DNA of 31,024 nucleotides from a virus: the IMG/VR virus record IMGVR_UViG_3300019850_000087, positions 1 through 31,024 of that record, one strand, 5' to 3'. Positions 4,453 through 31,024 of this stretch are shown here, in pieces. A program made the translations under genes and the position numbers. The notes under the pieces are model-generated. The model was not told where the DNA came from. It saw only the letters and a list, made by a program, of their open reading frames with translations, and searched no databases. Numbering within the stretch: the stretch's first letter is position 1; every line of letters starts with the position of its first letter.

Positions 4453-4805
4453 TATTTTTTAGGTTTTTCGTTATAAATTAGTTCTGTTTGTTCTATAGCA
4501 TAAAATAAATTTTGCAATTCATGTACATGAATTGGACAATCAATAACTATTCTTTTGTTAAAATAAATGACTGGATTCTCGTAATGCTCTTCACTATTTA
4601 GTATTGTTATATCTCCAAAAGTGTAGCCAAATTTATTTTTTGTAAACCCAAATTTTAACAGCCATTTTTCTGTTAATAAAATAGGTTCGTAATTAACTAT
4701 AAAATCGTTATCATTGAATAAATCTACAAAATCCAATAATCCAATCTGCCCAACTTCGCCCCGGTATTTAACAAAATTTCCTATTCTTAATTCTTCTATT
4801 TTCAT
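4452..4805 (-). CDS. Conserved Bacteroidota phage protein of unknown function (MKIEELRIGNFV family)
   Basis: The N-terminus MKIEELRIGNFVKYRGEVGQ, the middle ILLTEKWLLKFGFTKNKFGY and the C-terminal VHELQNLFYAIEQTEL form a pattern I recognise from many phages and mobile elements of Bacteroidota. These appear in databases only as hypothetical proteins. The order is a small beta-barrel-like start, then a helix ending in the His-(E/Q)-LQN-L-(Y/F) signature. It is soluble, with no signal peptide. The family tends to sit in early or replication blocks, as here. Its activity is unknown. The recognition is from memory, not from a search. Confidence 0.75.
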   Translation of the reverse strand: MKIEELRIGNFVKYRGEVGQIGLLDFVDLFNDNDFIVNYEPILLTEKWLLKFGFTKNKFGYTFGDITILNSEEHYENPVIYFNKRIVIDCPIHVHELQNLFYAIEQTELIYNEKPKK

Positions 4806-4874: not shown

Positions 4875-5336
4875 TTAAATTAAATTATACTTTTCTAGTT
4901 GACTTCTCAACGCCCAAACTTTACGCCCGTTTTTTTCTAACATTGTGTATTTTTTCATATCTACTCCGTATTTGTTAACCATTTCAACTAATTCCATATA
5001 TGTGTGAGTTTCAACATATTGGTTAAATTTAATTATGTCGGCAATTTTAGGGCTGTCGTAAACAAAATTGTCTATCAAATTGTTAACAGCATCATTTAAT
5101 CTGCTATCAGTTAATTTATTACGTTTGATGGCTTCGGGCAAAAGATTAAAAAACGCATCACTCATTTTTGGGAATGCTGCCTTTAATTTGCTAAGTCCCT
5201 CAAACATGCCATGTTCGGAAAGATTATCGGTATAAATCGAAATTTTGTTACTCTGTTTTTCAAACTTTTGCAAACTTTCGTTATTTGTTGCTAAGCTTTG
5301 CTTAAATTTGTCTAATTCGTTGCTTAATTCTTGCAT
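4875..5336 (-). CDS. Putative helicase-loader-like replication protein
   Basis: A 153-residue protein with a coiled-coil-like N-terminus (QELSNELDKFKQSLATNNES). A helical region follows: LSKLKAAFPKMSDAFFNLLP, then NDAVNNLIDNFVYDSPKIAD. The pattern of AFP, a run of helices, and a final P-x-IADI resembles the N-terminal domain of phage helicase loaders (the G39P/DnaI type), where it contacts the replicative helicase. No ATPase motif is present, so it would be a loader or inhibitor without an AAA+ domain. It lies directly downstream of the replisome organizer, the normal place for the loader partner. The assignment is by analogy and position. Confidence 0.45.
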   Translation of the reverse strand: MQELSNELDKFKQSLATNNESLQKFEKQSNKISIYTDNLSEHGMFEGLSKLKAAFPKMSDAFFNLLPEAIKRNKLTDSRLNDAVNNLIDNFVYDSPKIADIIKFNQYVETHTYMELVEMVNKYGVDMKKYTMLEKNGRKVWALRSQLEKYNLI

Positions 5337-5473: not shown

Positions 5474-6463
5474 TCAGTTTCCAAATAAGCCGGCTTGTTT
5501 AATCCCTTTTTTAATCGCTTCAATAGTGTTAACATACTCTTGTTCAGTAACTTCATAAGGATTTTTCTTTTTTTGCGCAACTTTTTTCTTTTCGCTTCGT
5601 GAATTTACAAGTAATGTTTCAAATTTTTCTCTTAATTTGCTAGTACTTCTTATGTTTTTTTTCCAAAATTCATTTTCTGATAAATAAGCCCAGACTTCGC
5701 GCAAATTTTCAAATGTGAATTTATCTTTTTCGACTATTAATCTGATATGTTTAATGTTTTCGACTTTTGTTTTTTGGATTGAATTTGAATTTATATTTAG
5801 CTCCTGTAAATTTTTTTCAAAAAGCTTGTAAAAAGCTAAAGTAGTTTTGAAGTATTGTTTTTCAATTTCGGAATTAAAATCATTTTCGTTTAATAAAAAT
5901 AAAAAAACATCTTTCTTTTCTTTCTTATTCTTACTTATTATAGTTCTTTTACTTCTTATATTGTTGTCGTTTTGTGTGTCGTTTTGTGTGTCGTTTACTG
6001 TGTCGCTTTTTATTTTTGTCTCGTTATAATCGTTTGTATTGCTGTTTATTACATCATTTTTTACTGTGTCGTTTACTGTGTCGTTTACTGTGTCGTTTAC
6101 TGTGTCGCTTTTTTCTAATAAATTGTAAGTAGTTGTATTATTTGCGTTTATAGCATCGTAATCACAAATAGTAAATAGTGTAGCAGTACCAAGTATTTGA
6201 ACATCAATCATTTTATTTTTTATGCATTTATTCATAAATGTTCTAAATTTTCGCATTGTGCATTCGGGTAAAAGTTCTGCTAATTTACGATAAGAAGATA
6301 AAAATTGACCTCTTTTAATCAGTAATATTTTACCATTAAACATCATTTTATTATCCATAAAATTAGCCGATAAATACATATGTAAATACCATGTAAATTC
6401 AAGAGGTTTATTGAATAACCATGTGTTTGATATATTGTTATTCACTTTTATAAAACCATTCAT
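5474..6463 (-). CDS. Replisome organizer / replication initiation protein (lambda O-like layout)
   Basis: A 329-residue protein. The N-terminal 100 residues (NGFIKVNNNISNTWLFNKPL..., KRGQFLSSYRKLAELLPECT, then TMRKFRTFMNKCIKNKMIDV) have the form of the winged-helix domain of phage replication initiators. A hydrophilic linker contains two blocks of a four-residue repeat (DTVN / DTQN). The C-terminal part is helical (EVWAYLSENEFWKKNIRS) and resembles the helicase-recruiting half of such proteins. Initiators of this type bind the origin and bring in the loader and host DnaB. The 12-bp repeats that encode the linker lie inside the gene, as the iterons do in lambda O. Its start overlaps the preceding gene by 4 bases (ATGA). 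Confidence 0.7.
   Translation of the reverse strand: MNGFIKVNNNISNTWLFNKPLEFTWYLHMYLSANFMDNKMMFNGKILLIKRGQFLSSYRKLAELLPECTMRKFRTFMNKCIKNKMIDVQILGTATLFTICDYDAINANNTTTYNLLEKSDTVNDTVNDTVNDTVKNDVINSNTNDYNETKIKSDTVNDTQNDTQNDNNIRSKRTIISKNKKEKKDVFLFLLNENDFNSEIEKQYFKTTLAFYKLFEKNLQELNINSNSIQKTKVENIKHIRLIVEKDKFTFENLREVWAYLSENEFWKKNIRSTSKLREKFETLLVNSRSEKKKVAQKKKNPYEVTEQEYVNTIEAIKKGIKQAGLFGN
5966..6005 (-). repeat. 12-bp tandem repeats inside the replication initiator gene, block 1
   Basis: Three full 12-bp units (5966-5977, 5978-5989, 5990-6001; gtcgttttgtgt twice, then gtcgtttactgt) plus a partial unit. They encode the (N)DTQ/NDTV linker. With block 2 they are candidate initiator-binding iterons. Confidence 0.85.
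6056..6107 (-). repeat. 12-bp tandem repeats inside the replication initiator gene, block 2
   Basis: Three perfect units gtcgtttactgt at 6068-6079, 6080-6091 and 6092-6103, flanked by partial units on both sides. They encode repeated NDTV. About 50 bases of unrelated coding sequence separate this from block 1. An A/T-rich stretch follows at about 6108-6145. Confidence 0.88.
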
Positions 6464-7822: not shown

Positions 7823-7909
7823 TTAATTGGAAAACTCCTTTTTTTGATAATTTAACATAATCGAAACGTTTTTTAACGCTTCGACTATGTAGTTTTTTAG
7901 CCTTTTCAT
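7823..7909 (-). CDS. Small ORF coupled to recT, 28 residues
   Basis: Begins MKRLKNYIVEALKNVSIMLN; its ATG overlaps the recT stop as ATGA, the same coupling used by several real gene pairs in this operon. It is basic and helical. It contains an imperfect hairpin sequence (CGAAGCGTT ... AACGTTTCG, about 7861-7885). Too short to classify, and could be a chance ORF. Confidence 0.4.
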   Translation of the reverse strand: MKRLKNYIVEALKNVSIMLNYQKKEFSN

Positions 7910-8799
7910 TTCAATTTTTCTACTAATTCTGTTTGCTGTTCAATTGACATATCGTATTTATCTAACACCGTTTTAATCTGCTCTTTAGGTGCTATAAGTG
8001 TTTTATTAAATTGCGCATCAGTTAAAATCGGTTTTTGCGTTTCGGGGTCATATATCTGATTTTCAAAAGCTTCATCTACTTTTTCGGATACTGTTTGTAT
8101 TTCTATTTTTTCGCTTTCAACTTCGCTCTCTACTATTTCAAAATCTGTATTTTCAGTATTTCTAGATTGCTTGAAGTCGTAACTCTCATCATCTAACATA
8201 ATAGCCGAACTTGTATTTTTTGAGTTTAAAACACGCTTTAAAAGCCGTCTTAATGCAGCTTTTTTGTACATTTCATACTTGAAACCACCACCCCAAATAT
8301 TTTGAGTTTTTGCGACTGATTTAATCGCTTTTATATCATTCATATTCAAAAGCTCAAAGTCAATCGAGCCGTCAGCGTATTTGACAAAAGCATAAGAGCC
8401 GACAACTTCGCTTTCCGAAAATGGATTTATCGCATGTTGTAATTTTGTTTCGTTCCCTCTTTGTGCTGTGAAGTTGTCCTCTTTTCGCACAATATCGGAA
8501 TAGATTTGCGAAATATTAGCATTTTGAGAAGCTAAAAAAAGTAAACCTTGATACATTATTTCAGCTTTCACTTCGCCTTTGTAAGGTATTAGTACCAAGT
8601 GTTTTAGGCTCGGGTTGAAAGATAAGCCGCTCGCCCAAACTTCCAACGCCGATTTTAAAACAACTTCGGGAGAAGCTGTTAAATTTTTTGCAGCTGTTTT
8701 TAAAAATTCTACTTCTACGGCAAAATTTACACCGTATTTTTTTGTTTTTTTTGTTAGAGCAGCTTCGTATTGCTGCACAAATTTAGTGATGTTACTCAT
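7906..8799 (-). CDS. recT: RecT-family single-strand annealing protein
   Basis: The 297-residue protein is expected to bind single-stranded DNA and anneal complementary strands during phage recombination and replication. The RecT signature is clear: about residues 60-90 read NPSLKHLVLIPYKGEVKAEI followed by MYQGLLFLA, the conserved N-P-x-L-x-x-(Y/V)-x-I-P-Y region. Later GSYAFVKYADGSIDFE and the basic KYEMYKKAALRRLLKRVL complete the fold. The C-terminal 80 residues are acidic and variable, a usual host-SSB-contact region. It follows the RecE-like exonuclease gene by 29 bases, so together they form an exonuclease/annealase pair. Confidence 0.92.
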   Translation of the reverse strand: MSNITKFVQQYEAALTKKTKKYGVNFAVEVEFLKTAAKNLTASPEVVLKSALEVWASGLSFNPSLKHLVLIPYKGEVKAEIMYQGLLFLASQNANISQIYSDIVRKEDNFTAQRGNETKLQHAINPFSESEVVGSYAFVKYADGSIDFELLNMNDIKAIKSVAKTQNIWGGGFKYEMYKKAALRRLLKRVLNSKNTSSAIMLDDESYDFKQSRNTENTDFEIVESEVESEKIEIQTVSEKVDEAFENQIYDPETQKPILTDAQFNKTLIAPKEQIKTVLDKYDMSIEQQTELVEKLK

Positions 8800-8807
8800 A
8801 TCTATAA

Positions 8808-8846
8808 TTTTTAAATTAGATTTTTAAATTAGATTTCTAAATTAAT
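8808..8846. repeat. 13-bp tandem repeat between recE-like and recT
   Basis: Two perfect units TTTTTAAATTAGA (8808-8820 and 8821-8833) and a degenerate third (8834-8846). It spans the stop of the exonuclease gene and the recT leader. Probably slipped-strand duplication, though it also sets the A/T-rich leader of recT. Confidence 0.75.
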
Positions 8847-9644
8847 GTTTTGTATCGGATTATACGGCATTTCAAATAGATCTAACTCTTTTTTAACTTG
8901 TTTTGCTTTGCCGTTTTTTAGTAAAATTGCTCTATTAATTAACGGCTTAAGCATATGAAAATAATCACTTCCGGGGACTTCAATATAATTGAATTCGTAA
9001 GGATCTGTATTTTGAATAAACACGAAAATAAACCGGAAGTCTTTTTTTTCGGATAATTGTAGCAAATAGCTATAATAAGAAGCTTGTAACCAGTAACTGT
9101 AATTCATAATCACTTGTCGCATATTGTGCTGCGTAGGAATAACATTAGTGGTTTTCCAATCAATTAAGATGTTTTCATGTAAGTTAGTTACGTCTAATTT
9201 GCATTTTAATACTTCATTAATATTTTCTTTACTTCGCACGTTCAAAAAATATTCCTTTTCGGCTTCTGAATTTTTGCACCAATTTTTAATATTTTCATCT
9301 GATAAAATATCATTTACAAAATTTAAAGGGGTTACAATTTCACGGTTCTTAGATAACTCTTTTATTTTGTCTTTATAAACTTTTGTGTTTTTGAACCCTC
9401 TTTTTTGCAAATCGCTTTCATCAAAATAATCTAATTCATTAATTTCAATGTATTTTTTATCAAAATTATCTGTTTTGTTAATTGCATCTGATAATTTTTC
9501 ATGTACAGCCGACCCAAATATCATAGCCTTTGTGGGTGTGAATTTCGTTTCTAAAGCATGCAAATATTGGGCGTCGCTTTGTATTAAGTACTTTAATGTA
9601 CTATAATTAATTCCTTCTATTTCGTAATAATCTTTGTTTTTCAT
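8829..9644 (-). CDS. recE: RecE-like PD-(D/E)XK exonuclease
   Basis: A 271-residue nuclease, likely a 5'-3' double-strand exonuclease that makes the 3' tails used by RecT. Key residues are visible: GSAVHEKL with His48, the strand LKCKLDVTN with Asp151, then LIDWKTT with Asp162 and Lys164, and later LQASYYSYLLQ, the helix that follows the catalytic core in YqaJ/RecE-type nucleases. The acidic residue of the E-x-K position is Asp, as in several phage homologues. It is shorter than E. coli RecE because only the nuclease domain is present. Immediately upstream in the transcript lies a hairpin (9658-9692). Confidence 0.88.
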   Translation of the reverse strand: MKNKDYYEIEGINYSTLKYLIQSDAQYLHALETKFTPTKAMIFGSAVHEKLSDAINKTDNFDKKYIEINELDYFDESDLQKRGFKNTKVYKDKIKELSKNREIVTPLNFVNDILSDENIKNWCKNSEAEKEYFLNVRSKENINEVLKCKLDVTNLHENILIDWKTTNVIPTQHNMRQVIMNYSYWLQASYYSYLLQLSEKKDFRFIFVFIQNTDPYEFNYIEVPGSDYFHMLKPLINRAILLKNGKAKQVKKELDLFEMPYNPIQNINLEI

Positions 9645-11928: not shown

Positions 11929-12155
11929 AATATTTAATTTTTTCGTTCATTGCAATATTAAACTAATCCAAACTATTTTTAGCAGCATTAACATCAATTT
12001 CACAGTATTAACAAGATTTTAACAATTAGCTCAAAACCATTTATTTACCTAATCTTAGAGTTAATAAGACTTTGCTTTATTTATGCATATTTTGCAATAA
12101 ATTTTGTATTAACATGTGATTAACTATATTTGCATATAAATAAATACAAAACAAT
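11929..12155. promoter_or_regulatory. Divergent control region between the early block and the plus-strand block
   Basis: A 227-base A/T-rich non-coding region separating the leftward gene 11467-11928 from the rightward gene at 12156. I see one good rightward promoter (12103-12132). For the leftward direction no exact TAnnTTTG box is present; the best candidate is TAATATTG at 11953-11960 (one mismatch), embedded in the 16-mer TTAATATTGCAATGAA that recurs at 13512 and 13554. Likely the main regulatory switch of the genome. Confidence 0.6.
12103..12132 (+). promoter_or_regulatory. Rightward promoter for the HTH / membrane-HTH genes
   Basis: -33 TTTG at 12103-12106, 18-base spacer, -7 TATATTTG at 12125-12132. 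The spacer is one base shorter than the usual 19-21. A start site near 12137-12139 would leave a leader of about 17-19 bases before the ATG at 12156. Confidence 0.65.
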
Positions 12156-13495: not shown

Positions 13496-13579
13496 AAGGG
13501 TTTCAGATTAATTAATATTGCAATGAAACAAAAAATAAAGGGTTTCAGATTAATTAATATTGCAATGAAACAAAAAATA
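13496..13579 (+). repeat. Perfect 42-bp tandem duplication over a start-codon region
   Basis: Bases 13496-13537 and 13538-13579 are identical. Each copy carries the 16-mer TTAATATTGCAATGAA, an ATG (13523 and 13565) and the stem halves GTTTCA / TGAAAC, which could pair over the start codon. The unit is 14 codons, so both ATGs are in the same frame. Confidence 0.95.
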
Positions 13580-30412: not shown

Positions 30413-31024
30413 ATGGTTGAAGTAAATAAATTATCTGATAAAGAATTGTTAATATTAAAAACTAAGCTATTGCTAGATTTTGGCTTTTTTTTGCGTTTCT
30501 TTTTTAAAATTGTTAATGGAGAAAAATTTTTATTAAACTGGCATCATGAACTGATAATAAACGAATTAACAAATATTTATAATAAAAAATATGATAATCT
30601 GATTATTAACATCCCTCCGAGGCACTCAAAAACTACTTTAACAACTTTTTTCACTGCTTGGTCTTTGGCTAAAAACACAGAAAGCCTATTTTTGTATATC
30701 TCAGCATCTGAAAAATTAACAAATGACAATAGCCGAACGGTTAGAAATATTTTGTTAAATCCTATTTTTAAACAGATTTTTAACGTTGAAATTTCTCAGG
30801 ATATAACCGCAAAAAATCACTGGCGAACTGAAAGCGGCGGAGGTATTACAGCGGCGACAATTAATGGGCAAATAACAGGGTTCGGAGCTGGTAAATTAAC
30901 TGATAATGAGACTTTTTACGGTGCGATAATTATAGATGACCCTAATAAAATCAACTCAGACGGATCTGAAATCTTGAGTAATGAACCAAATGAAATTTTT
31001 AACAGCACAATAAGGAGCAGGCGA
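30413..31024 (+). CDS. terL: Terminase large subunit, N-terminal part (runs off the window end, continues at base 1)
   Basis: These 204 codons hold the ATPase half of the packaging motor. The ATG at 30413 follows an A/T-rich leader and lies 18 bases after a TAACTTTG -7 box. Residues 66-75 read NIPPRHSKTT, the deviant Walker A loop typical of phage terminases, followed by an adenine-binding or coupling region. The last 141 bases duplicate bases 1-141, so the first 47 codons of the window-start copy are the same codons. Joining base 30883 to base 1 restores one uninterrupted frame of 470 codons plus stop. The gene is transcribed away from the structural block, divergently from the portal gene, whereas in many phages terminase and portal are co-directional. 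Confidence 0.95.
   Translation, partial: MVEVNKLSDKELLILKTKLLLDFGFFLRFFFKIVNGEKFLLNWHHELIINELTNIYNKKYDNLIINIPPRHSKTTLTTFFTAWSLAKNTESLFLYISASEKLTNDNSRTVRNILLNPIFKQIFNVEISQDITAKNHWRTESGGGITAATINGQITGFGAGKLTDNETFYGAIIIDDPNKINSDGSEILSNEPNEIFNSTIRSRR
30884..31024. repeat. Direct terminal repeat, right copy
   Basis: Exact second copy of bases 1-141. Removing one copy gives a circle of 30,883 bp. Confidence 0.95.

Follow-up and report, generated by a model that had tools for sequence, protein, structure and literature searches.

The locus raises the question whether a run of 12-bp repeats lying inside the initiator gene of a phage is the place at which its DNA replication begins, or a stretch of repetitive coding sequence whose only product is a peptide. 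The window (the whole analysed stretch of 31,024 nucleotides) is a virus record with a 141-bp terminal direct repeat (1-141 = 30884-31024), and because these terminal bases are identical at both ends, it very likely represents a genome of 30,883 bp in its entirety, with the terminase large-subunit gene probably spanning the join. Judging from its sequence, the genome (29.5% GC) belongs to an uncultured small tailed phage, whose nearest named relatives infect Flavobacteria. Neither the whole initiator nor the capsid protein, used as queries in IMG/VR, retrieved a close relative, and the relatives of the initiator C-terminal domain and of the capsid are mainly Flavobacterium and Polaribacter phages. 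A limited literature search, covering titles and abstracts, found no mapped origin for Flavobacteria phages; the locus offers a testable origin for an uncultured phage related to this group.

The iteron array and the gene that contains it

The elements of the locus are the following:

5474-6463, minus strand: gene of the initiator (replisome organizer, 329 aa), with a match to phrog_2514 (DnaD-like helicase loader, E 3.6e-29)
6131-6463, minus strand: N-terminal domain (aa 1-111), predicted winged helix, homolog of the SPP1 gp38 N-domain, putative iteron-binding domain
6064-6110, minus strand: iteron block 1, four AAACGACACAGT-type sites at 12-bp spacing
6009-6063, minus strand: spacer between the iteron blocks, 55 bp
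5962-6008, minus strand: iteron block 2, four sites at 12-bp spacing, the last one degenerate
5880-5959, minus strand: candidate unwinding element, AT-rich, adjoining the iterons on the C-terminal side
5525-5926, minus strand: C-terminal domain (aa 180-313) with PHROG 'O-like' matches, putative helicase-recruiting part

The repeats are directly observed. On the plus strand the 12-mer GTCGTTTACTGT occurs at 5990, 6068, 6080 and 6092 and nowhere else in the genome, while GTCGTTTTGTGT occurs at 5966 and 5978; on the gene strand the unit AAACGACACAGT is found at eight sites, starting at 6100, 6088, 6076 and 6064 in the first block and at 5998, 5986, 5974 and 5962 in the second. The array lies about 350 bp into the gene, between the N- and C-terminal domains. 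Tandem Repeats Finder reported a period of 12 in both blocks and a super-period of 102 bp (5965-6151), and the best self-match of the gene at lags of 10 to 13 (0.886) exceeds the maximum of 1000 dinucleotide shuffles (0.75) as well as the 0.73 that other 990-bp stretches of the genome reach at best. Exact matches, Tandem Repeats Finder and shuffles thus bear out the original prediction, made from the sequence alone, of 12-bp repeats inside the initiator gene, as two blocks with eight sites and a 55-bp gap. Its reading of a D-T-V-N linker holds as well, since the repeats encode DTVN and DTQN.

The A/T-rich flanks that had also been noted are present as the stretch 5880-5959, but the A/T-richness is modest for a genome of 29.5% GC: the stretch is less stable than 94-96% of the 60-bp windows, i.e. 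it falls into the top 4-6%. It lies on the same side as in the case of the AACAATGATAA repeats of SPP1 and its relatives. GC skew, proposed earlier as a check on an origin near 6 kb, tracks gene direction and carries no origin signal here, so that it proved uninformative.

Several other features of the genome may be mentioned. Upstream of the initiator, on the same strand, a RecT-like annealing protein is encoded next to a DUF3799/exonuclease VIII-like nuclease (7906-9644), forming a recombination pair. Immediately downstream, a 153-aa protein (4875-5336) is by position a candidate helicase loader; profile searches against Pfam and PHROG gave no match for it. A perfect 42-bp tandem duplication (13496-13579) at the putative start of a phosphoadenosine-phosphosulfate-reductase-like ORF doubles the peptide KGFRLINIAMKQKI.

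Relationship of the initiator to known replication proteins

The PHROG profile search revealed that the phrog_2514 match spans nearly all of the initiator protein, while the Pfam search identified no family at E<=0.1, the RepA_N domain included. Homology of the N-domain is directly established: tblastn identified SPP1 gene 38 (E 3e-5) and Staphylococcus phage phiSP119-2 (E 1e-11), and homologs are present in initiators of Staphylococcus, Bacillus, Vibrio, Shewanella, Pseudoalteromonas and Enterococcus phages. An alignment of 14 sequences contains seven invariant columns; the N-domain of this phage is divergent, with 25-34% identity and a long branch in the tree. The C-terminal domain is common to Flavobacterium phage elemo and Polaribacter phages Danklef and Freya.

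The closest worked case is SPP1, whose gp38 (G38P) binds direct repeats of oriL within gene 38, an array that is a proven origin (PMC6316719). Both systems exhibit homologous N-domains, direct repeats with a AAACGACAC-type core right behind this domain in the gene, and AT-rich DNA on the same side. They differ in that the SPP1 repeats form one block with a frame-shifting spacing of 11 bp, whereas those of this phage are in-frame, 12 bp apart and arranged in two blocks, and in that the C-domains are dissimilar. SPP1 furthermore encodes a loader (gp39) and a helicase (gp40) of its own and possesses oriR as a second origin, whereas neither an oriR-like cluster nor a helicase was found in this phage; the motif scan described below revealed no second cluster anywhere in the 31-kb genome. 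Staphylococcus phages phi575, PVL and StB27 likewise combine the same N-domain family with iterons in the linker, and for 80alpha an origin has been proposed within ORF20, whose product is 26% identical to gp38 (PMC5499656). These staphylococcal initiators, 80alpha ORF20 among them, differ from that of our phage in the 11-bp spacing, in their C-domains and in their Firmicutes hosts.

The original prediction had called the protein a lambda O-like initiator, and one may ask whether the locus is a genuine lambda O-type origin, i.e. a true member of that family with O-type iterons. The layout, with iterons between two domains within the initiator gene, and the C-terminal half of the protein agree with such a description, as phrog_391 ('replication initiation O-like') matches with E 5e-7. 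The 'O-like' profiles, however, cover only aa 129-313 and score weaker than phrog_2514; none of them reaches the N-domain, where the DNA-binding domain of lambda O would be expected and where the match is to SPP1 gp38 and DnaD-like loaders instead. Lambda iterons are longer and palindromic, while those observed here are 12 bp long with a gp38-type core, and no P protein was recognised in this phage. Membership in the lambda O family proper is therefore barely credible, and of the earlier designation the layout and the C-terminal half stand, while the N-domain does not.

The structure model of the N-domain (mean pLDDT 87) exhibits a winged helix. Among the solved structures matched by this model are initiators of plasmid replication and a complex of Rep with DNA (4pql with Z 8.2 over 91 residues, 4pt7 with 7.7, 5kbj with 7.6); CRP-like rows are mixed in among these whole-domain matches, and unrelated winged helices score as high. 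4PT7 is a staphylococcal RepA (PMC7145576). The matches to TubR and CRP-like folds were taken to reflect the common winged helix only. RepA_N initiators such as pSK41 Rep, with a winged-helix N-domain of their own, give a whole-domain structural match to our protein (Z 7.6-8.2) that is within the range of chance arrangements, and exhibit no detectable sequence relation to it. In the pSK41 plasmid the Rep N-domain binds repeats central in its own gene, the protein can do without the linker encoded there, and the C-domain makes contact with the primase of the host (PMC5703833).

By analogy with pSK41, a scheme of loading, opening and recruitment probably applies to this phage as well. The N-terminal winged-helix domain would bind the eight AAACGACACAGT iterons between the domains of its own gene, several bound copies of the initiator would make up a nucleoprotein complex, this complex would open the AT-rich stretch that follows on the C-terminal side, at 5880-5959, and the C-domain would recruit the host replicative helicase, while the same DNA would code for a flexible (DTVN/DTQN)n linker. 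The host helicase is proposed as the target because no phage helicase was recognised among the PHROG matches of about 40 ORFs; primase and polymerase were not recognised either. From homology and the motif we infer that the initiator binds the iterons, that the DNA melts, that helicase is recruited and that the array serves this phage as an origin.

The array as a probable DNA element

A sequence motif was derived blindly, by expectation maximisation on the linkers of 16 relatives with this phage left out; it is 11 bp long and reads AAAcGACAgag. When both strands of the genome were scanned (62,028 positions), the top five and eight of the ten best matches were array sites, whereas for each of 200 column-permuted versions of the motif no more than five of the ten best matches fell into the array, and none equalled the placement of the real motif. 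As a positive control, the motif was retrained without SPP1-like phages and scanned on the SPP1-like phage 049ML003. Its five best matches fell into the replisome organizer gene (35915, 35948 and 35967) and into non-coding DNA (4640 and 4659), i.e. into an in-gene array (35915-35977) and a non-coding array (4640-4669) located 13.5 kb apart on the circle. This distance agrees with the published distance of about 13 kb between oriL and oriR of SPP1 (PMC6316719), and the motif recovered both SPP1-type origins. The second array, lying in non-coding DNA, shows that the motif is a DNA element.

The main alternative to consider is that the repeats matter as protein: they would encode a flexible Asp/Thr/Asn linker that grew by slippage, and their DNA sequence would have no role of its own. 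All eight sites of the array lie in one codon frame at a spacing of 12 bp, which preserves the frame, so in this gene, considered by itself, slippage could conceivably have produced a peptide repeat; the near-identical copies resemble, and could stem from, recent duplication, and linkers are generally repeat-rich. The unit fits, however, a motif of relatives with different linker peptides and frame-shifting spacing: the 11-bp spacing of the sites in phi575, SPP1, StB27 and EHTP1 takes them through all three codon frames, an independence of frame that is directly observed. Moreover, the 12-mer GGACACAGTGAC is translated as SDGH in L108 and as VTDT in L107 and L110, and it is the three-frame sites together with the same 12-bp unit in another frame that argue for conservation of the DNA rather than the peptide. 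The non-coding array of the 049ML003 control points in the same direction, as do the codons of the array in this phage: GAC is found in eight of eight units and AAC throughout, both being the less used codons of the genome (GAC 27%, AAC 29%).

When IMG/VR was scanned by DNA pattern alone, for three units of GACACAGT spaced 12 bp apart, four contigs were retrieved, and in three of them, the viral contig L108 included, the match lies in the linker of an N-domain homolog. The same pattern gave 13 matches in genome contigs, of which one alone, in the Bacteroidales MAG L117, belongs to an initiator of this kind, while the others are unrelated repeats, a result that the peptide reading may claim for itself. 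In L117 (5200-6537) a gp38-type N-domain is followed by a GACACAGTAATC 12-bp array, a prophage-like case in Bacteroidota. The pattern also matches unrelated genes for DTVD-repeat proteins, as in L109, where a 1049-aa protein contains some thirty such repeats, and its DNA unit GACACAGTAGAT (around 11962-11993) mimics the iteron; the iteron pattern alone is not proof of an origin. On balance, we consider a pure peptide repeat very unlikely.

A further possibility is that the array is an operator, at which the initiator controls its own operon while replication begins elsewhere. Initiators often regulate their own genes, the array lies within the operon, and binding for control and binding for initiation look alike in sequence comparison. 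Against an operator speak the position of the array, about 350 bp inside the gene and not at a promoter, the lack of any other motif cluster in this genome, and the homologous SPP1 array, which is a proven origin (PMC6316719), all of which render this explanation highly improbable.

Since the repeats match the origin repeats of SPP1 and its relatives, they very probably are the start site of phage DNA copying. We consider it very likely that the array is a theta-type origin built like SPP1 oriL, at which the phage's own initiator would bind the iterons, the AT-rich DNA would open and the host helicase would be recruited. The iteron origin originally predicted in the linker of the initiator gene is thereby supported by comparative evidence from the motif, the relatives and the periodicity survey presented below. 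One stretch of DNA would here be under two constraints, as a set of binding sites and as an open reading frame.

Iterons across the initiator family

An origin such as SPP1 oriL is of an already known type, and the more interesting part is the family-wide rule and its 11- and 12-bp variants. Eighty IMG/VR loci with the N-domain were fetched, and periodicity was analysed for 48 non-redundant members, two or three of which had been found via the repeat itself. Most distinct loci exhibit linker arrays with a period of 11 or 12 and differing sequences. Examination of the relatives for repeat-less initiators, which had been suggested with the original prediction, came out in its favour, as in 46 of the 48 the linker surpasses the remainder of the gene in periodicity, with a few exceptions; no clear 10-13-bp array was seen in SL25, Vib206, L027, L047 and L130. 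The linker periodicity exceeds that of synonymous recodings (p<0.05) in 39 of 48 relatives; where the signal is strong, the best match falls at a lag of 11 in 29 members and at 12 in 13. The 12-bp spacing does not form one clade in the best N-domain tree and arises in several places; the AU test does not reject a tree that unites this phage with the 12-bp lineages of the GACACAGTA type (p-AU 0.64).

N-domain identity and linker similarity are correlated (r 0.28, 0 of 1000 permutations); among pairs under 45% identity the correlation is absent (r -0.05), and therefore no recognition code is claimed. For the gp38-type family as a whole, there is about an even chance that the origin is kept in the linker of the initiator's own gene, with a frame-shifting spacing of 11 bp or a frame-keeping one of 12 bp and with iterons that diverge by lineage (GACAC, GGCCA, AACGCA, CAACATC and ACCCCTC types). 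From a few worked cases, SPP1 and the 80alpha proposal, this would lead to a simple rule of origin prediction across a large family of phage initiators, and if true, it would provide a natural series of matched initiator-iteron pairs from several bacterial phyla, with key and lock in each gene.

Among the C-domain relatives, arrays accompany gp38-type N-domains in L127 and L136. Two others, L128 and L132, possess unrelated N-domains and 10-11-bp linker arrays (AACCACCCTTC and CAACACGCTT, respectively), which suggests in-gene iterons in further initiator families. The notion that the repeats follow the N-domain only was dropped, given these two arrays with other N-domains and L130, with a gp38-type N-domain and no clear array. 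Array length also varies between near-identical phages: L061, an N-domain homolog, exhibits twelve consecutive 11-bp iterons, compared with about six in its close relatives L041 and L045.
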